In this document: one piece after another, positions 7,362-25,838 of the stretch
Layout of the letters: each line of letters begins with the position of its first letter
How positions within the stretch are numbered: position 1 is the stretch's first letter
Assembly (NCBI RefSeq): GCF_017874375.1
Contig: NZ_JAGGLK010000001.1
Span: 372,001 to 436,000, forward strand
Source of the DNA: Methanohalophilus levihalophilus
Lineage (GTDB): Archaea > Halobacteriota > Methanosarcinia > Methanosarcinales > Methanosarcinaceae
Direction: 5' to 3'
Length of the DNA stretch: 64,000 nucleotides
Notes under the pieces: generated by a model
Seen by the model: the letters and a program-made list of their open reading frames with translations, nothing else
Told to the model about the DNA's origin: nothing
Database searches by the model: none
Translations under genes and position numbers: made by a program

Positions 7362-7532
7362 TCTTCTGATTTGGTGATTTATTATAATGTTTCTGGAAGG
7401 AGAGATTCGAGTTTATTTATAAATAATATTTAATAATATTATGCGTCAATTTATCAGGTGTTAAAATATAAATTTACGAAAGTATTTATCTGATGCAGTC
7501 AAACTAGTTTTAACAATCGTGAGGGTGATTGA

Positions 7533-13368: not shown

Positions 13369-14055
13369 TCAATTCCCTTCCACCCACTCATCATTTACCA
13401 GCCTACCATCTTCAAAGGTAATGACCCTGTCAACATAGTCAACATGCCAGGGTTCATGGGTTACCATTACAATTGTCTGGCCATAGTTATCATTCAGATC
13501 CTTGAATACTTCAAGCACCTGCTTCGAATTTCTGGTATCAAGGTTTGCACAGGGTTCATCGGCAAACATGATATCGGGTTTTTTGGCAATAGCCCTTGCA
13601 ATTGCTACTCTTTGCTTCTCTCCGCCTGACAACTCATCAGGTACACGGTCATGTTTGTCTTTCAGGCCAACCTTGTCCAGAGCTTCAAGTGCAATTTTAT
13701 AGGATTCCTTTTTTGATTTTCCTTCCATCATGGAAAGCACGTAGACGTTTTCCGCAGCAGTCATTTCATTAATGAGTGCATAATCCTGGAAAACATAACC
13801 AACTTGTGTCAATCTGTAATAGCTCCTTTCTGCTTCAGGCAGGTTGGAAACCTGTAGACCCCGAATTGTATACTCCCCATCAGTTGCATCATCCAGTAGT
13901 GCCAGTATCCTCAAAAGGGTTGTTTTCCCGCTTCCGGATGCTCCCATAATGGCAACAAACTCCCCTTTCTTTATCTCAAATGACACATCATTGAGAGCCT
14001 TGACAGCAGTCTCCCCGGAACCATAACACCTTTTGAGGTTTTTCACGATTATCAT
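13369..14055 (-). CDS. ABC transporter ATP-binding protein (LolD/MacB type)
   Basis: 228 residues from ATG 14055; an upstream extension in the same frame would run into the permease gene, and GGGGAAGAT lies just before this ATG. Walker A GASGSGKTT, Q-loop FQDYALI, signature LSGGEKQR, Walker B IMFADEP and the H-loop VTHEP are all present, in the LolD/MacB family arrangement. It directly follows the FtsX-type permease (one base gap) and should power it. Last gene of a four-gene operon. Confidence 0.9.
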   Translation of the reverse strand: MIIVKNLKRCYGSGETAVKALNDVSFEIKKGEFVAIMGASGSGKTTLLRILALLDDATDGEYTIRGLQVSNLPEAERSYYRLTQVGYVFQDYALINEMTAAENVYVLSMMEGKSKKESYKIALEALDKVGLKDKHDRVPDELSGGEKQRVAIARAIAKKPDIMFADEPCANLDTRNSKQVLEVFKDLNDNYGQTIVMVTHEPWHVDYVDRVITFEDGRLVNDEWVEGN

Positions 14056-14056
14056 A

Positions 14057-15268
14057 TTATCTTCCCCATATGGCTTTGAGTATACTCTCTTTTGATACGC
14101 TCCATGCAGGAAGTGTACCGGCAATTACTGATAATGTTAGCATTGTAATTATGCTCTGGATAAGTAGCATGGGTTCAATCACCGGACTTATTTCCATAGT
14201 CTCATAGAATTTCACCGGGTTTGCCTGGAAGTATAGCATAAGGGAGAAATACAAAATCAATCCGGCAAGTATTCCCAGGGAGACATAGAACATGCTGAGG
14301 AAAGCATAAGACAACACTATTGATCTTGGGGTAATCCCTATTGCCTTCAAAATGCCTATTTCTTTTTTCCTGTTAAGTATGTTAATGTAGATTATGATCA
14401 GTATCAATGCTGCTCCAACTATCAATCCCACAAACTTTGACATTGTGTTCAGTGCACCAAGGCTTTGTAGTGCCTGCCTGATGAGTGTCTCGGATTTATC
14501 AGCCCATGTGAAAACCTGCTCATTCACCCCGGCATCCCTGATCTTGTCCTTAACCTGATCTTCACTTCCCGGTGGATTTACCCTTACAACTACGCTGGTA
14601 GCTTTACTCCCTTCCAGACCATATACTTCTTCTATCTCTTTGTAGTGCACAAGGGCATTAAGGTCAACAAGTTCAAAATTGCCTTCCATGATTCCTTTAA
14701 CCTTGTAGGTCCTTTGAACACCGTTACTGTATGTAACCTCAACAAGAGAGCCAACTCTGGCTTCGCCCAGATCATCATATATGTCTCCAAAAGTTGTACT
14801 CGTGCCTGCGATTGCAGCACCAAGGATGATCTCATCCCGGGACAGTTCTCCCAGGAAATCCCCTTCAACGATGCTGTACGGGTATTGCGAGATTTCATAC
14901 TCTTCAGTGGGAACCAGTCCCGTTATTGTCACCCCCACAACGTTTTGTTTGTGCTCTATGGATGCTCCTACATCCAGTCTTTTTGTTGCAGCACTCACCC
15001 CCTCCACAGCCCGGGCCTTCTGCAAGACGCTGTCAGCGTCATTGATGTAGGTATTGTCTCCAGAGGGTTCAATTACAATATCTCCATATGGATAGTCCTG
15101 CATAATCCCGGTAAATAGAACCATCATTCCTCCGATCATTGATGGAAGGAATACTAAGTTCATGAAAATGAGGGAGAGGACAAAAACAACGAATATTAGT
15201 GTTTTTTTGTTCCCTCGTTTTATACTGCTTGATGCAATGAGGGCTCCAACCCTGACATCGTCTATCAT
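14057..15268 (-). CDS. FtsX-like ABC transporter permease
   Basis: 403 residues. One N-terminal membrane helix (residues 24-46) is followed by a large external MacB-like periplasmic core domain (about 50-270). Three more helices lie in the FtsX domain, where the conserved ILNRKKEIGILKAIGITPRSI loop is clear. This is the MacB/LolC topology: a mechanotransmission protein that works on extracellular or membrane-embedded substrates rather than as a classical importer. It sits between the exported CARDB-like protein and the ATPase. Confidence 0.9.
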   Translation of the reverse strand: MIDDVRVGALIASSSIKRGNKKTLIFVVFVLSLIFMNLVFLPSMIGGMMVLFTGIMQDYPYGDIVIEPSGDNTYINDADSVLQKARAVEGVSAATKRLDVGASIEHKQNVVGVTITGLVPTEEYEISQYPYSIVEGDFLGELSRDEIILGAAIAGTSTTFGDIYDDLGEARVGSLVEVTYSNGVQRTYKVKGIMEGNFELVDLNALVHYKEIEEVYGLEGSKATSVVVRVNPPGSEDQVKDKIRDAGVNEQVFTWADKSETLIRQALQSLGALNTMSKFVGLIVGAALILIIIYINILNRKKEIGILKAIGITPRSIVLSYAFLSMFYVSLGILAGLILYFSLMLYFQANPVKFYETMEISPVIEPMLLIQSIITMLTLSVIAGTLPAWSVSKESILKAIWGR

Positions 15269-15280
15269 ACCAGAGACCTC

Positions 15281-16513
15281 TTATTCATTACCATCTTCTT
15301 TTTTGCCAGCAGAGTTATTACTATCTTCCATTAGCTGTTTGATGATTTCGTCTTTTGATCTTTTCATCCTGTAATTGTAGTAAACCAAACCACCAATAAC
15401 TGCCAGGACAAGCAGGATTGCTACAGCGGTTCCTGCTCCACTGCTGCTTTCCAGAACGATGATGTTGATCTTTGTATCGACCTGCTCTTCACCAAAATCA
15501 TCAATATAAGTGATGGTAATCGGTATTTCGTATTCTCCGGCTTCGTCTGCTATGAAAGTGAGAACTGCAGGCCCGTCCTCATCGGGATCCAGGGTTCCGA
15601 TAAAGGATTCTTTTACCCCCTTGAATGGGTGATCAGCATAAACGCGGATTGAATTAATTGTCCTGTCGCCGGAGTTCTCGATTCTCATGGTCAGCTCGAC
15701 GGTATCATCGACATAAGGAATTACAGGGTCTACCTTAACAGATGCCAGATTCAGGCTTCCTTTTTTATCAAGTACGGTTATCGTGATGTTGTGTTCATCA
15801 CTTTGCTTGCCGAAATCATCTTCATATTCAATGGTGACAGGTATCCTGAATTCCCCGGATGCATTTGCCTTAAACTTGAACAAAGCAGTTTGGCTTCCAT
15901 TGAGACCAAGGGTACCAATTGTTGAGTTCTTGATTCCTTCAAAATCATGATCCACTCTAACAGAAACGGACTTTGCAATTGCCTCCCCGTAATTTTCTAT
16001 GCCCAATGTCAGATCAACTGTATCTCCTTCATAGATGTATTCGGGACTGGTTGTGATGGAAGAAACTCTGGGTTCTGCATCTTCGCCTGTTACCCTGACA
16101 TCAACTTCGTAGTACTTGGTTGTTTCCAGTTCTTTATTGTCATATGTCAGTTTCATCTTAATGATGTGAGGACCGGGATTTGCATCAGGGGTCGTTCTCA
16201 TGTGGTACACAAGATGCCTTTCACTTGTAGGGTATGAGAATTCATCAATTGTAGTTACGAGATCTTCAATTACTACGATGTCCGAAGGGATACTGATGAT
16301 TTCAAAGGTAATGCCTTCAGGAGCCTTGGTTCCACAGCTCTCAAGATCGATAGCAAGTGTGAATTCTTCGTCAATGCCAACAGAACTTGGACTCAATTCC
16401 TTAATTTCTGCTTTTACGCATATTATTCCGTCAGTAAAGTCAGCTGAAGCCACTCCTGTAAATATAATGCTGAGAGCAAACAGCAAACAGCAAAGTCTAA
16501 AATTCAGATTCAT
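15281..16513 (-). CDS. Exported CARDB-like (COG1361) envelope protein
   Basis: 410 residues: signal peptide (1-24, cleaved near VASA-DF), then at least three beta-sandwich repeats with the CARDB pattern (TVDLTLGIENYGEAIAKSV; DDTVELTMRIENSGDRTI), one membrane helix (TAVAILLVLAVIGGLVYY, near 370-388) and a charged cytoplasmic tail. It should stand outside the cell on a single helix. Its start overlaps the regulator stop (ATGA), and the FtsX permease follows 12 bases later, so it is probably the extracytoplasmic partner of that transporter. Confidence 0.8.
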   Translation of the reverse strand: MNLNFRLCCLLFALSIIFTGVASADFTDGIICVKAEIKELSPSSVGIDEEFTLAIDLESCGTKAPEGITFEIISIPSDIVVIEDLVTTIDEFSYPTSERHLVYHMRTTPDANPGPHIIKMKLTYDNKELETTKYYEVDVRVTGEDAEPRVSSITTSPEYIYEGDTVDLTLGIENYGEAIAKSVSVRVDHDFEGIKNSTIGTLGLNGSQTALFKFKANASGEFRIPVTIEYEDDFGKQSDEHNITITVLDKKGSLNLASVKVDPVIPYVDDTVELTMRIENSGDRTINSIRVYADHPFKGVKESFIGTLDPDEDGPAVLTFIADEAGEYEIPITITYIDDFGEEQVDTKINIIVLESSSGAGTAVAILLVLAVIGGLVYYNYRMKRSKDEIIKQLMEDSNNSAGKKEDGNE

Positions 16514-20683: not shown

Positions 20684-21982
20684 TTGTTAAAACAAATTTG
20701 CATAGCTTTAGCTGTATTAATGATATTTGCTGCAACTGCAGTGGCATGGCAACCTGAAACCTGTAAGAGCTGTCACCTTGAACAGTACGAAATCTGGAAT
20801 TCATCGGCACACGCTGATTCTCTAAAAGCTGCCGGTGGTTCGGTTGTGGATATTGAAAGTTGCACCGAATGCCACGTGGAATCCTCAATAAAAGAAACAT
20901 GGGGGAGGGAGGATGTTGAGACTACAATCGAACCCATTACCTGTGAGGTTTGTCACTTGCCTCCTGAGGTAGGTTATGATGCCCATTTGAATGCTCCTTC
21001 CGATCATCTGCCGGAGGTAACCCTTTCTGCCGAATTGTGTGGTAACTGCCACAGGGATTCCCATCATCCGGTCATAGAGGAATGGAATGAGTTTGATAGC
21101 AGCGGATTTAACATGACCGCAACAGCAAGTCACTCCGAACCCACCGATATTGCAGAACCCTACATTCTTGGAATGGACAATGAATGTGTAGCCTGCAAAG
21201 CTACTGATGGTGCAATTCCAAACCTTGCTGATCCTGAAGTTTTCGGATTAAACCTTGATGAAGTTCCTGAACCCGCAGAAGTTTCCGAGTGGCGCATTAC
21301 CTGTGTTGCCTGCCATGAACCCCACTCTGCAGATTACAGGATTGAGGATGATGCGCAGCTCTGTGGAAACTGCCACAATTCGGAACATGCCATTCCTGAT
21401 GGCATGACTCCTGCAGTTCGCCATCCACAGTGGGAAATGTATAATGGTTCCATATATGATACTGGAATTCATCCCGGGGATCTCGGATGTTCTGACTGTC
21501 ATATGGCTGCTCGGGAATACAATGATACAACACAAGAGGCTGCCATAACAGGGCATACATTTGATTTTGATCCGGAGTTGCTGTTTAGCTCCACATCTTC
21601 TAACGGGTGCTATGATTGTCATCAGGAAGGTTTCATCGTAGTTGTGGAAGCAAAACAGGAAATTGTCACCGAACGTCTTGATGAACTTGCAACCCTGAAA
21701 ACTAATGCAACGGTTTCACTGGAAGAATTGAACGGGACCAGTGGTTATGATGCAGCACTGGAAGATTACAACAACGCCCTGTTCTATATGACTGCGGTGG
21801 AATCTGATGGAAGCCACGGCATTCATAACATGGAAAAAGTGAAAGAGTACCTTGACAATTCCGAGGAGCTTTTCAATGCAGTTATTACCCGTCCTGAAAC
21901 GGTTGCACAACCCGGCTTTGAAGCAATTCTCGGAGTAATCGGATTGTTTGCAGTTTTGTGGATTGTGAAGAAGAGAGAGTAA
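20684..21982 (+). CDS. Nine-heme cytochrome c with CxxCK site and PGF-CTERM anchor
   Basis: 432 residues. Signal peptide 1-21, then eight CxxCH sites (C27, C60, C87, C119, C207, C227, C269, C309) and one CVACK site (168-172). Lys as the fifth ligand is the active-site signature of NrfA-type nitrite reductases. The segment RHPQWEMYNGSIYDTGIH before CSDCHM and the late HGIHNMEKVKEYL helix also resemble that superfamily. QPGFEAILGVIGLFAVLW plus KKRE at the C-terminus is a PGF-CTERM archaeosortase signal, so the protein should be fixed at the outer face. Start TTG after GGGGGAG. No NrfH-like partner is adjacent. It may reduce a nitrogen or sulfur compound, or carry electrons to or from the outside. 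Confidence 0.85.
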   Translation: MLKQICIALAVLMIFAATAVAWQPETCKSCHLEQYEIWNSSAHADSLKAAGGSVVDIESCTECHVESSIKETWGREDVETTIEPITCEVCHLPPEVGYDAHLNAPSDHLPEVTLSAELCGNCHRDSHHPVIEEWNEFDSSGFNMTATASHSEPTDIAEPYILGMDNECVACKATDGAIPNLADPEVFGLNLDEVPEPAEVSEWRITCVACHEPHSADYRIEDDAQLCGNCHNSEHAIPDGMTPAVRHPQWEMYNGSIYDTGIHPGDLGCSDCHMAAREYNDTTQEAAITGHTFDFDPELLFSSTSSNGCYDCHQEGFIVVVEAKQEIVTERLDELATLKTNATVSLEELNGTSGYDAALEDYNNALFYMTAVESDGSHGIHNMEKVKEYLDNSEELFNAVITRPETVAQPGFEAILGVIGLFAVLWIVKKRE

Positions 21983-22009: not shown

Positions 22010-22774
22010 TTACTTTTTTTCTTCATCGCCTTCGGAGATTATATCCCGCATAGCTTTGATTCCAAGTGTAGGAGGTACTTTTTTTGGACAGATTGCAACA
22101 CATCTGTAAACCAGATCACACCCCCAGACTCCGGAATCAGAGTCCACGAAATCAAGTCTCTCCTGTCTTTTTATGTCATTTTCCCTTGGATCAAGATGCA
22201 GTCTCCACGCTTTTGCAAGGGTTGCGGGACTGAGATAGGTTTTATCTCTTGCGGCAACCGGACAAACACCATGGCAACAGGCGCAGAGGATACAATTTGT
22301 GTATTTCTCAATTTTCTCCCGTAATTCCGGGTCCATGAGGTTGCCACTTTGGGGATACTCTTCAGGTGACGTAACCCAGGGTTTGATTGAATCAACAAGA
22401 CTGTAGAATAAATCCATGTCCACGATAAGATCCCTGATGACTTCCAGGTTTGGAAGTGGCTCGATCAGGATTTCACTTTCCTGTTCTGCATGTTTTGGAG
22501 AAACAAGAATTTCATTGGAATCTTCATTATTAACTTCATTTTTTACAAGGCTCATCTGCGTTCTGCAGGCAAGGCGTGGAACCCTGTTAATCAGCATTGC
22601 ACAGCTTCCACATACCGCTCCCCTACAGGCATACCTGAAGCAAAGGCTTCCGTCAAGGTGTTCCTGCACGTAGAAAAGAGCTTCAAGTACAGTCATTCCG
22701 GGTGTTTCATCGACATTAAAGGTATCGTGCCAAACCCGGTTTTCATCCTGTCTTTTGATTTTGAGTGTTGCCAT
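22010..22774 (-). CDS. Fumarate reductase/succinate dehydrogenase iron-sulfur subunit
   Basis: 254 residues. N-terminal plant-type ferredoxin domain with CFRYACRGAVCGSC and a distal Cys (LAC) for [2Fe-2S]. The C-terminal alpha-helical domain has CILCACCHGVCP and CDLVYRCVAICPKKVP for [4Fe-4S] and [3Fe-4S]. Length is that of plain SdhB/FrdB: it lacks the C-terminal CCG domains of methanogen thiol:fumarate reductase TfrB. The start overlaps the flavoprotein stop by one base (TGATG). No membrane-anchor gene follows, so the electron partner is unclear. Confidence 0.9.
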   Translation of the reverse strand: MATLKIKRQDENRVWHDTFNVDETPGMTVLEALFYVQEHLDGSLCFRYACRGAVCGSCAMLINRVPRLACRTQMSLVKNEVNNEDSNEILVSPKHAEQESEILIEPLPNLEVIRDLIVDMDLFYSLVDSIKPWVTSPEEYPQSGNLMDPELREKIEKYTNCILCACCHGVCPVAARDKTYLSPATLAKAWRLHLDPRENDIKRQERLDFVDSDSGVWGCDLVYRCVAICPKKVPPTLGIKAMRDIISEGDEEKK

Positions 22775-24450
22775 CAGTACTCTCTCCTCTTTGGCTGGAA
22801 CCGGGTAATAGTAACTTCCTTATACTCCAGCCTTGGCCCTTGTGGGGTTCTGTATGCAAGAGTGTGCTTGAGCCAGTTTTCATCATCCCGCTCAAGGAAA
22901 TCAGTACGATAGTGGGCTCCCCGGCTTTCCTCCCTCACAAGCGCTCCTTCAGTAATAACACGTGCAAGTTCCAGCATGCCTTTCACTTCAATAGCATTCA
23001 TTAATTCAAGGTTGAAGGTCTTCACCTTGCTTTTTACACGGATATTTTCACCACGTTTCTCAAGCTCTTTTATCTTCTCAAGGCCGGTTTCAAGATCCTT
23101 CCTGTTCCGGTAGACACCAACATATTTCTGCATTGTTTCCCTGAGTTCATCCTTAACATCGGCAAAACTTTCCCCGCCTTCTCCCATAAGAGAATCAAGT
23201 TCCGCTTTTTTCTCCTCAAGAGCTTCATTGAGGCTATCCTGTGCAGGCATCTCTCTTTTCTTCACATAATCCGCAGCATGTTCTCCCGCCCTTTTTCCGA
23301 AAACAATAGTATCAAGCAGGGAATTCCCTCCAAGCCTGTTTGCACCGTGGACGCTGATGCAGGCGCATTCTCCGATAGCATAAAGCCCGTCCATTGGAGT
23401 CATTCCATCTTTGCCTGAAGGAATGCCTCCCATGGAATAATGGTGTCCGGGTTGCACGGGAATCGGCTCCTTTACGGGATCAACGCCTGCAAAATCAATG
23501 CAAATCTGCCGGATTCCACTTAACCTGTCGTTAATCAGATCCGTGTCAAGGTGGGTGATGTCAAGATGCACGTAGCCACCCGGAAAGCCGCGTCCTTCAT
23601 CGATTTCCGTCTGGATTGAACGGGCAACAATATCCCTGGGCGCAAGCTCCATGGAATTTGATGCATATTTTTCCATGAATCGCTCATGATCCTTGTTGTA
23701 AAGGTAACCTCCTTCGCCGCGTACGCCCTCTGTTATGAGGATATTGGTTCCCCAGAGAGTTGTAGGGTGGAACTGGACGAATTCCATGTCCTGCATGGGA
23801 ACACCTGCCTTGTACGCAAGGCTAATTCCAAAACCTGTATTGATTATGGAGTTGGTGGATCGCTGATAGATTCTACCGTAGCCCCCTGTGGCAAGAATTG
23901 TTGCTTTTACCCTGAAGGCTTCAAGCTCCGAATTAAATAGGTTAATTGCTACAAACCCTGTGCATTTCCTGTCCTCAAGAGCAAGATTTGTTACCATCCA
24001 TTCGTTGTAGATCTTAATACCTGCCCACAGAATCTGCTCGTAAAGAGTATGCAAAAGATTGTGCCCGGTCTTGTCACCGGCATAGCATGTTCTTGGGAAT
24101 CCGGCACCACCGAAAGGACGCTGGGCGATTTTTCCATCCTCGGTTCTGGAGAACAGCACTCCCCAGTTTTCCATTTCATAAACCCTTTCAGGTGCTTCCT
24201 TACACAGGATTTCAACGGTATCCTGATCCGCAAGGTAATCGCTTCCCTTCACTGTGTCATAGGCATGGTTTTCCCAGCTGTCATCAGAACCTATGGCTGC
24301 ATTTATACCTCCCTGTGCTGCCACAGAATGGCTGCGTATGGGAGGAACTTTTGAAATAACTGCTACATCAGCTCCTTTCTTCTTAGCTTCAAGGGCAGCC
24401 CGAAGGCCAGCCAATCCACCGCCAATTACAATTATTTCATGTTCTATCAT
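22774..24450 (-). CDS. Fumarate reductase/succinate dehydrogenase flavoprotein subunit
   Basis: 558 residues. FAD-binding GGGLAGLRAALEA at the N-terminus, the covalent-FAD histidine region IRSHSVAAQGGINAA, active-site segments HPTTLWG and RGEGGYLYN, and QPGHHYSMGGI with the capping residues. The C-terminal helical domain shows ESRGAHYRTDFLERDDENW. It should interconvert fumarate and succinate with the iron-sulfur subunit. Start overlaps the fumarase stop (ATGA). Probably completes a reductive partial TCA branch in the cytoplasm, or links to an unusual donor. Confidence 0.9.
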   Translation of the reverse strand: MIEHEIIVIGGGLAGLRAALEAKKKGADVAVISKVPPIRSHSVAAQGGINAAIGSDDSWENHAYDTVKGSDYLADQDTVEILCKEAPERVYEMENWGVLFSRTEDGKIAQRPFGGAGFPRTCYAGDKTGHNLLHTLYEQILWAGIKIYNEWMVTNLALEDRKCTGFVAINLFNSELEAFRVKATILATGGYGRIYQRSTNSIINTGFGISLAYKAGVPMQDMEFVQFHPTTLWGTNILITEGVRGEGGYLYNKDHERFMEKYASNSMELAPRDIVARSIQTEIDEGRGFPGGYVHLDITHLDTDLINDRLSGIRQICIDFAGVDPVKEPIPVQPGHHYSMGGIPSGKDGMTPMDGLYAIGECACISVHGANRLGGNSLLDTIVFGKRAGEHAADYVKKREMPAQDSLNEALEEKKAELDSLMGEGGESFADVKDELRETMQKYVGVYRNRKDLETGLEKIKELEKRGENIRVKSKVKTFNLELMNAIEVKGMLELARVITEGALVREESRGAHYRTDFLERDDENWLKHTLAYRTPQGPRLEYKEVTITRFQPKRREY

Positions 24451-25838
24451 TTCTTTGCCCCGGTCATTCTGAGAGTATCGAATAACTCAGCAGCTTCTTC
24501 TTTGGTTATGCCTAATTCTGAATTTTCTACGATTTCACGCACAGTTTTGTTATTCCTGTGTGCTTCATAGGCAATTTCAGCCGCCTTTTCATACCCGATC
24601 TTCGGAGCAAGTGAAGTTCCTAGTGCAAGACTTGATTCTGCAAGTTCAGTGCAACGTTTAACGTTAACCTCGATTCCTTTTATGCAGCGTTCATTGAAGC
24701 AGTCAATACCTCCTGAAAGGATTTTGATTGAATCGAGAAGGTTGTGGGCAAGAACCGGCGTGAAAACATTTAATTCAAATTGTCCGCCCTGTGCTGCCAT
24801 TGTTATGGTTGTGTCATTGCCGATTACCTGGAAACAAACCATATTCATCATTTCAGCCATGACAGGATTCACTTTCCCGGGCATGATGGATGATCCGGGT
24901 TGTACCGCAGGAAGTATAATTTCTCCTATACCCGTCCGTGGTCCGCTTGAAAGTAGTCTCAGGTCATTGGCAATCTTAATGAGGGTTATAGCAATATCCC
25001 TTAATGCAGCCGATGTGGCCAGGATTGCTCCAGCTCCCTGTGTTGCCTCAAATGTATTTTCCGTGAGCCTGAAATCAATCCCTGTAATAAGCTTCATTTC
25101 ACGAATCGCAGAATTGCTAAATCCGGGAGGTGTGTTCAGTCCGGTTCCAACTGCAGTGCCTCCCATATTGAGTTCTTTCAGATCTATCATTGCCCTGTGA
25201 AGGCGCTGGAATCCAAGTTTTAGCATTCGTGAATATCCGCTGAATTCCTGCCCAAGTGTGACCGGAACAGCATCTTGAAGATGGGTTCTCCCGGGTTTGA
25301 CAATTTCCATATATTCATCAGATTTTGAGTCAATTTCCTTTTGAAGGGACCGCAACGCCGGGACAAGCACGTTCGCCAGTGTTTCCGTTGCAGCAATATG
25401 TATTGCAGTATGTGTGGTGTCATTGGAGGATTGCGACATGTTTACATGGTCATTGGGATTAATGATATCATATCTTCCTTTTCCAAACCCAAGTAATTCT
25501 AATGCCCGGTTTGCAATGACTTCATTGGCATTCATATTCTGGGAAGTTCCTGCACCCGATTGGAACGCATCCAGTACAAACTGGTCATCAAACTTTCCTT
25601 CCCGCACTTCTGAAGCAGCTTTATAGATAGCTTCCCCGATTAGATGTTCGAGTTTTCCTGTTTCCATATTGGCTCTTGCGGATGCCATTTTGATAGCTGC
25701 TTGCGCCTTGATGAATACCGGGGGTAGTCTCTGTCCGCTAACCCTGAAATTTTCCACTGCCCGGGTTGTCTGGGGGCCGTAGTAAACATCATCTGGCACC
25801 TCCACATTCCCGAGAGTATCTTTTTCAACCCTTGCCAT
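24447..25838 (-). CDS. fumC: Class II fumarate hydratase
   Basis: 463 residues of the aspartase/fumarase superfamily. GAGTSQNMNANEVIANRA, the SQSSNDTTHTAIHI segment (fumarase type; aspartases read SQSTNDAYPT), TGRTHLQDA-like PGRTHLQDAVPVTLGQE, and the signature GSSIMPGKVNP are all visible, as is the C-terminal LAPKIGYEKAAEIA. It hydrates fumarate to malate. AAAGGTGAG precedes the ATG. First gene of the operon with both fumarate reductase subunits, so the three form malate-fumarate-succinate interconversion. Many methanogens use a two-subunit class I fumarase instead. Confidence 0.85.
   Translation of the reverse strand: MARVEKDTLGNVEVPDDVYYGPQTTRAVENFRVSGQRLPPVFIKAQAAIKMASARANMETGKLEHLIGEAIYKAASEVREGKFDDQFVLDAFQSGAGTSQNMNANEVIANRALELLGFGKGRYDIINPNDHVNMSQSSNDTTHTAIHIAATETLANVLVPALRSLQKEIDSKSDEYMEIVKPGRTHLQDAVPVTLGQEFSGYSRMLKLGFQRLHRAMIDLKELNMGGTAVGTGLNTPPGFSNSAIREMKLITGIDFRLTENTFEATQGAGAILATSAALRDIAITLIKIANDLRLLSSGPRTGIGEIILPAVQPGSSIMPGKVNPVMAEMMNMVCFQVIGNDTTITMAAQGGQFELNVFTPVLAHNLLDSIKILSGGIDCFNERCIKGIEVNVKRCTELAESSLALGTSLAPKIGYEKAAEIAYEAHRNNKTVREIVENSELGITKEEAAELFDTLRMTGAKK

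Follow-up and report, generated by a model that had tools for sequence, protein, structure and literature searches.

The nearest solved relative of the cytochrome described here is OcwA of Thermincola potens, whose hemes 1-4 are reported to superpose on cytochrome c554 and hemes 5-9 on NrfA (PMC6703420). The available part of that paper describes hemes 2 and 5 of OcwA as open, lying beneath His-His motifs and bound by CxxCH at both sites. OcwA is reported there to reduce Fe(III) oxide, electron shuttles and nitrite (1 per min), to reduce as well as oxidize hydroxylamine, to exchange electrons with electrodes, and to leave sulfite unreduced. OmhA of Carboxydothermus ferrireducens (6qvm) is an undecaheme S-layer cytochrome. 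In a published tree, as far as the accessible text describes it, proteins with 9 to 16 hemes, from monoderm prokaryotes and from methanogenic archaea, stand beside OmhA and OcwA (PMC7829351). Kin of the protein studied here thus appear to be placed in print already; no functional work on them was found in the literature searched. In methanogens, MmcA is described as a heptaheme cytochrome related to OTR, with CXXXCH motifs (PMC11024163).

Gene layout and nearest solved relatives

The window, meaning the whole 64,000-nucleotide stretch of Methanohalophilus levihalophilus DNA that was analysed, encodes a nine-heme cytochrome in a host genome of 2.116 Mb on five contigs. Site X in the list below is a codon in the linker between hemes 2 and 3.

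20684..21982, + strand: nine-heme, PGF-CTERM-tailed cytochrome gene, 432 aa (open reading frame; TTG start after a GGGGGAG stretch)
20684..20746, + strand: putative signal peptide, residues 1-21 (judged by eye from a hydrophobic N-terminal stretch that ends in AVA)
20762..21052, + strand: c554-like tetraheme half, hemes 1-4 (motifs, Pfam Cytochrome_C554, c554 profile match)
20762, 20861, 20942 and 21038, + strand: heme motifs 1-4, CKSCH, CTECH, CEVCH and CGNCH, respectively
20909..20911, + strand: the GAG codon of Glu76 (site X), between hemes 2 and 3 (sequence; codon comparison with relatives)
21062..21067, + strand: His127-His128, aligned with the OcwA His-His pair (281/282) above open heme 2 (6i5b, domain 3)
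21185..21622, + strand: NrfA-like pentaheme half, hemes 5-9 (motifs, Pfam, profile alignment)
21185, 21302, 21362, 21488 and 21608, + strand: heme motifs 5-9, CVACK, CVACH, CGNCH, CSDCH and CYDCH, respectively
21197-21199, + strand: Lys172 of CVACK
21419..21424, + strand: Arg246-His247, aligned with NrfA HPEYET and OcwA HHPHKEM; distal face of the CxxCK heme
21629..21886, + strand: C-terminal helices of NrfA/OcwA type with a DGSxGIHN signature (model and profile alignment)
21908..21973, + strand: PGF-CTERM anchor, residues 409-430 (Pfam PF18204)

An earlier note on this DNA had read the frame as carrying eight CxxCH motifs and one CVACK, and a motif-by-motif count agrees, with the CxxCK fifth in order. 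Because nine motifs fall within 432 residues and are all kept in orthologs of 66-73% identity, a chance array is excluded; dN/dS against the Methanolobus copy G119 is 0.05. Pfam Cytochrome_C554 matches residues 26-91, and a 39-row family profile searched against solved structures matches c554 (1bvb/1ft5) over positions 23-119 (E 1.2e-6). The NrfA-like segments that the note had pointed to are real, as Pfam Cytochrom_C552 matches residues 244-394 (E 2.4e-9). The PGF-CTERM tail scores over the Pfam cutoff (22.8 bits vs 18.8), although under that of NCBIfam TIGR04126 (14.6 vs 24.5). The cytochrome is probably anchored at the cell surface, as the note had proposed. Genes for cytochrome c maturation, whose absence would have spoken against the note's reading, are present in the genome as CcmE and two Cytochrom_C_asm proteins.

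In the profile search, the best solved-structure match was OcwA (6i5b, E 7.8e-45), a protein the earlier note did not name, followed by OmhA (6qvm, 4.5e-37), NrfA (2j7a, 1.7e-18), MccA (3e-17), ONR (about 1e-15) and c554 (1bvb). AlphaFold2 models of the window protein (39 rows, mean pLDDT 59.5) and of a relative from genus g5, L043 (32 rows, pLDDT 67.0), are too weak for heme placement, and the former also for judging open sites; only fold-level matches were taken from either. Foldseek ranked OcwA first for both models, then OmhA, NrfA and ONR. For the window model these matches have rmsd values of 5-16 and TM-scores of ~0.17-0.35, and they support kinship only jointly with sequence. VIA-align placed the g5 model nearest ONR (Z 17.7), NrfA (about 17) and OcwA (16.2), with HAO, HDH and MccA at Z 10-11, where kinship is possible.

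The window protein and OcwA share nine hemes divided into a c554-like four and an NrfA-like five, a His-His pair above heme 2 (by alignment only, His127-His128 being the HH before YPEW) and C-terminal helices with DGSxGxHN; a surface location like that of OcwA is expected for the window protein. They differ at heme 5, which is CxxCK in the window protein and CxxCH in OcwA, and in the beta-sheet insertion that OcwA has between its hemes 1 and 2 (residues 75-156), which the window protein lacks; the profile alignment passes over OcwA chain residues 47-119, the region of that domain. The archaeal PGF-CTERM tail and the TAG-bearing relatives described below are likewise confined to the window side of the comparison. 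OmhA aligns with the profile in a single long stretch over hemes 2-9, but has eleven hemes and CxxCH (CLECH) where the window protein has CxxCK. The distinction from MmcA drawn in the earlier note holds, since the motif list shows no seven-heme CXXXCH/CXXXXCH layout of the MmcA/OTR kind and the neighbours include no Rnf operon.

The CxxCK heme and the proposed function

In the profile alignment, hemes 5-9 correspond to the pentaheme core of NrfA and ONR. The CxxCK of NrfA (2j7a) falls on that of the family, and at the next motif CVACHEPH falls on CATCHDPQ. The CxxCK heme is, by homology, the NrfA active-site heme, and this first heme of NrfA stands fifth because four extra hemes precede it. 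Consequently, the earlier note was right in its count, fifth of nine, but not in setting the motif apart from NrfA and the octaheme reductases, given that the whole NrfA set, CxxCK included, maps onto hemes 5-9. ONR (TvNiR) has the identical order of CxxCK then four CxxCH, and octaheme relatives in other genera carry CxxCK as heme 4 of 8, which is the ONR layout. The window protein differs from ONR in its nine hemes, its weak sequence match (~1e-15, by profile) and the absence of the NrfA-type Tyr. Neither five nor eight hemes, the numbers of NrfA and ONR, are found in it, and 13 of the 39 aligned relatives have eight with CxxCK fourth.

The active-site Tyr of NrfA follows the third core heme, in a motif we take to be CxxCHVEYYF. 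The window protein has CGNCHNSEH instead, and none of the 39 aligned rows has a Tyr at those two places; one row without CxxCK (L039) has a Tyr nearby. The distal His (E. coli His264) is present as His247, aligned with HPEYET of NrfA (2j7a) and HPEAET of TvNiR, and is replaced by Tyr in 8/39 rows (L014, L019, L052, L033, L034 and L041-L043). A dedicated nitrite or hydroxylamine reductase with the function of NrfA or ONR, for detoxification or ammonium formation, would suit the alignment of CxxCK and distal His, the ONR heme order of the octaheme relatives and the Cytochrom_C552 match. Because the NrfA Tyr is missing, however, the protein does not appear to be a bona fide nitrite reductase: a Tyr218Phe variant of NrfA is reported in the accessible part of a review to lose nearly all nitrite activity and to keep sulfite reduction (PMC8840924). 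The replacement of the distal His in some rows, and the lack of nitrogen-cycle genes in the neighbourhood examined, also weigh against such an enzyme, which we consider rather unlikely.

We favour, with somewhat better than even confidence, a secreted, PGF-CTERM-anchored, multipurpose terminal reductase of the OcwA type, with an NrfA-type Lys-ligated heme and a detoxifying side activity. Its layout, the CxxCK homology, the Ccm genes and the conservation are read from sequence; the open sites, electron source, substrate and surface location are what we infer. As in OcwA, a c554-like tetraheme half is fused to an NrfA-like pentaheme half; heme 5 retains the lysine ligand of NrfA and ONR, and heme 2, with the His-His pair above it, is the second presumed open site. 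Electrons could pass from a membrane chain through the nine hemes to the cell surface, where the two open hemes would hand them to whichever acceptor arrives, be it humics, metal or, slowly, nitrite or hydroxylamine. At the core heme, OcwA and OmhA both carry CxxCH where the window protein has CxxCK, and its range of catalysis may therefore be different. The earlier note's suggestion of a reductase or an electron outlet is sound as a possibility. Metal respiration is opposed by a report, in the available text of PMC11024163, that Methanolobus vulcani is incapable of reducing soluble Fe3+, even when AQDS is supplied; the family is present in two M. vulcani genomes, which may not be of the strain in that report.

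The neighbours of the gene are mostly cytosolic metabolic genes. Encoded there are a permease-Usp fusion, a GNAT acetyltransferase, a fumarate reductase pair, a fumarase and FTR1. The locus showed no further multiheme gene, and a PF14537 search of the genome returned the cytochrome gene alone, below cutoff, with a model that is weak for other cytochromes. The fumarate reductase flavoprotein and iron-sulfur subunits lie with the fumarase at 22010-25838 (- strand), convergent with the cytochrome. They adjoin it in the same order in both Methanohalophilus loci inspected (the window and G106), and this flank is absent at the inspected loci of Methanolobus, g9 and g5. Because the flank is not kept at the loci inspected in other genera, the fumarate reductase link was not used for function. 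Elsewhere in the window, a CARDB/BatD-like protein with a signal-like N-terminus is encoded at 15281-16513 (- strand), opposite in strand to the cytochrome; its gene adjoins an ABC-type permease frame (14057-15268) and an ATPase frame (13369-14124), both named by eye.

Heme loss among the relatives

A search of the order gave matches at E 1e-3 or better in 59/185 genomes, many of them partial. Within the host's own family, the gene occurs in 7/8 Methanohalophilus genomes (the host included, and G105 with a broken copy), in some Methanolobus, and in genera g5, g7 and g9. At 1e-15, 35/392 genomes sampled from the phylum matched, including four that lie outside the order; 14 pattern matches in viral contigs included no relatives. 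One match from outside the order, L076 / L081 (G193; E 2.9e-102), keeps CxxCK, has CGHCM in the place of heme 2 and carries repeats before the anchor. The Methanohalophilus copy in G105 (L012) has a TGA replacing the heme 5 Cys and a TAG in place of a conserved Trp, neither of which is site X; given this broken copy, at least one species seems able to do without the gene.

The variant table comprises 39 rows, and the broken copies of G105 and G124 were left out of it as well as of alignments A1 and A2 and the tree. The window type, with nine hemes, CxxCK and Glu/Asp at site X, accounts for 9/39 rows. Heme 2 and its linker are deleted and CxxCK kept in 14/39 (g7, g9 and two Methanolobus); 13 of these have eight motifs with CxxCK fourth, in ONR order, and the remaining one, L020, has a short extra motif. 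Conversely, CxxCK and its linker are deleted and heme 2 kept in 5/39 rows, all Methanolobus, with TAG at site X in one and ATG in four. Five rows combine CxxCK with TAG at site X, three of them from g5 with nine motifs and two from Methanolobus with ten; 6/39 are distant rows from other families without CxxCK.

Sister lineages have thus lost now heme 2, now heme 5, the two hemes presumed to be active. Because either heme may be deleted, depending on lineage, and because a pyrrolysine codon stands in the linker between hemes 2 and 3 of some relatives, the family seems to consist of two reaction modules that were lost and remodelled separately. This pattern also bears on the idea that the protein is purely an electron wire for electrode or partner contact, with no catalysis at CxxCK. 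The many hemes, the surface tail and the electrode exchange reported for OcwA (PMC6703420) would all be in keeping with a wire, but the conservation of CxxCK in lineages without heme 2 speaks for some special function of the CxxCK heme, and the idea strikes us as doubtful. The multipurpose reductase remains our preferred reading.

An in-frame TAG between hemes 2 and 3

Seven relatives share an in-frame TAG at site X. They comprise three species of genus g5, three intact Methanolobus copies and one pseudogene, in genomes G081, G082, G083, G132, G116, G112 and, for the pseudogene, G124. The TAG lies at position 7394 of locus L033, 8304 of L034, 7413 of L036, 8672 of L041, 7434 of L042, 8194 of L043 and 7328 of L035. 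Across the relatives, site X is TAG in seven, ATG in four and GAA/GAG/GAT in ten (the broken G105 copy included); this codon listing contains duplicates of three loci, and the seven TAG copies are distinct. The window gene has no TAG inside it, its site X being GAG. Each intact TAG copy has a single TAG in the gene body and a frame open up to the C-terminal anchor.

TAG at site X is very probably read as pyrrolysine in these relatives. PylS scored over cutoff in 22 of the 23 genomes searched, all seven TAG hosts among them. Nei-Gojobori omega, computed for the segments before and after the TAG, was 0.18 and 0.26 for G081/G082, 0.15 and 0.25 for G081/G083, 0.25 and 0.31 for G082/G083, and 0.14 and 0.16 for G132/G112; for G132/G116 and G116/G112, dS was saturated before the TAG, and omega after it was 0.15 and 0.24, respectively. 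The TAG is unchanged at dS values, after the codon, of 1.4 (G132/G116), 2.3 (G132/G112) and 1.7 (G116/G112), and the probability of a neutral triplet staying the same is about 0.05 at dS 1.4 and 0.02 at dS 2.3. It is the presence of PylS in the hosts, the purifying selection on both sides and the persistence of the codon at high dS that argue for a constrained amino acid.

A sequencing error or pseudogene was rejected for six copies, which come from six assemblies, are open to the anchor and have omega of 0.14-0.31 where dS is unsaturated. The G124 copy (L035) is a pseudogene, with a TAA and an internal deletion removing later hemes. A real stop followed by re-initiation is unlikely, as a signal peptide and two hemes precede the TAG, seven or more heme motifs follow it, and both parts are conserved. 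In the tree, TAG occurs in two clades, and a Met clade (support 94/80) lies within one of them beside the TAG row of G112. This tree, whose root is not fixed, is compatible with one ancient TAG that became Glu in the window clade and Met in a second clade; alternatively, TAG may have been gained twice.

A 2025 paper is reported to describe an archaeal code with every TAG as pyrrolysine and may list this cytochrome family; we accordingly do not claim that the finding is new to the literature. Searches of open-licence full texts in PMC listed no paper reporting pyrrolysine in a heme protein, and the word 'cytochrome' is absent from the main text of PMC3639795 and PMC2933860. Multiheme cytochromes with selenocysteine (ExtKL, NF040886; MccSep, 9wt8) resemble the TAG-bearing proteins in having a recoded residue, and their N-terminal hemes match weakly; they differ in that UGA encodes selenocysteine at another position, and no codon is recoded in the window protein.

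Site X lies 12 residues past the heme 2 His in the window protein and is present only where heme 2 is present, so that it may plausibly act at the heme 2 site. The second His above heme 2 is absent in five of the six intact TAG copies; G112 has both TAG and HH, and covariation between TAG and loss of this His was dropped as a rule because of that exception. Sulfite is reported to add to the imine carbon of pyrrolysine in crystals of MttB and MtmB (PMC9842639, in the text available). It is conceivable, though on the unlikely side, that these proteins are heme reductases with two reaction sites, and that pyrrolysine originally served as a functional residue next to an open heme 2, as it would to this day in two lineages. 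The imine would then trap a nucleophile, such as hydroxylamine, sulfite or an amine, which the heme would reduce; alternatively, the pyrroline nitrogen would be a ligand of the iron at the position where sister proteins have Met. Pyrrolysine may also simply be tolerated at site X. A reductase for sulfite or another sulfur oxyanion, to which the relatives' pyrrolysine could bind sulfite, is the least probable function considered, for despite this adduct, the MccA profile match and the sulfite activity kept by Tyr-less NrfA, OcwA is reported not to reduce sulfite, the window protein shows no sign of the beta-sheet insertion that OcwA has in common with MccA, and the neighbours scanned include no sulfur genes.

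On the preferred reading, an OcwA-type terminal reductase with the lysine-ligated heme of NrfA would now be found in methylotrophic methanogens. Extracellular respiration in these organisms is debated, and the route studied in them is that of MmcA. Pyrrolysine near one of the two likely reaction centres of such a protein would be in an unusual place, and the two-site proposal, if true, would give a pyrrolysine enzyme beyond methylamine methyl transfer, acting outside the cell. The natural series of variants, with TAG, Met, Glu or a deleted segment at site X and with heme 2 or heme 5 deleted, offers a way to test what pyrrolysine does in a redox protein.
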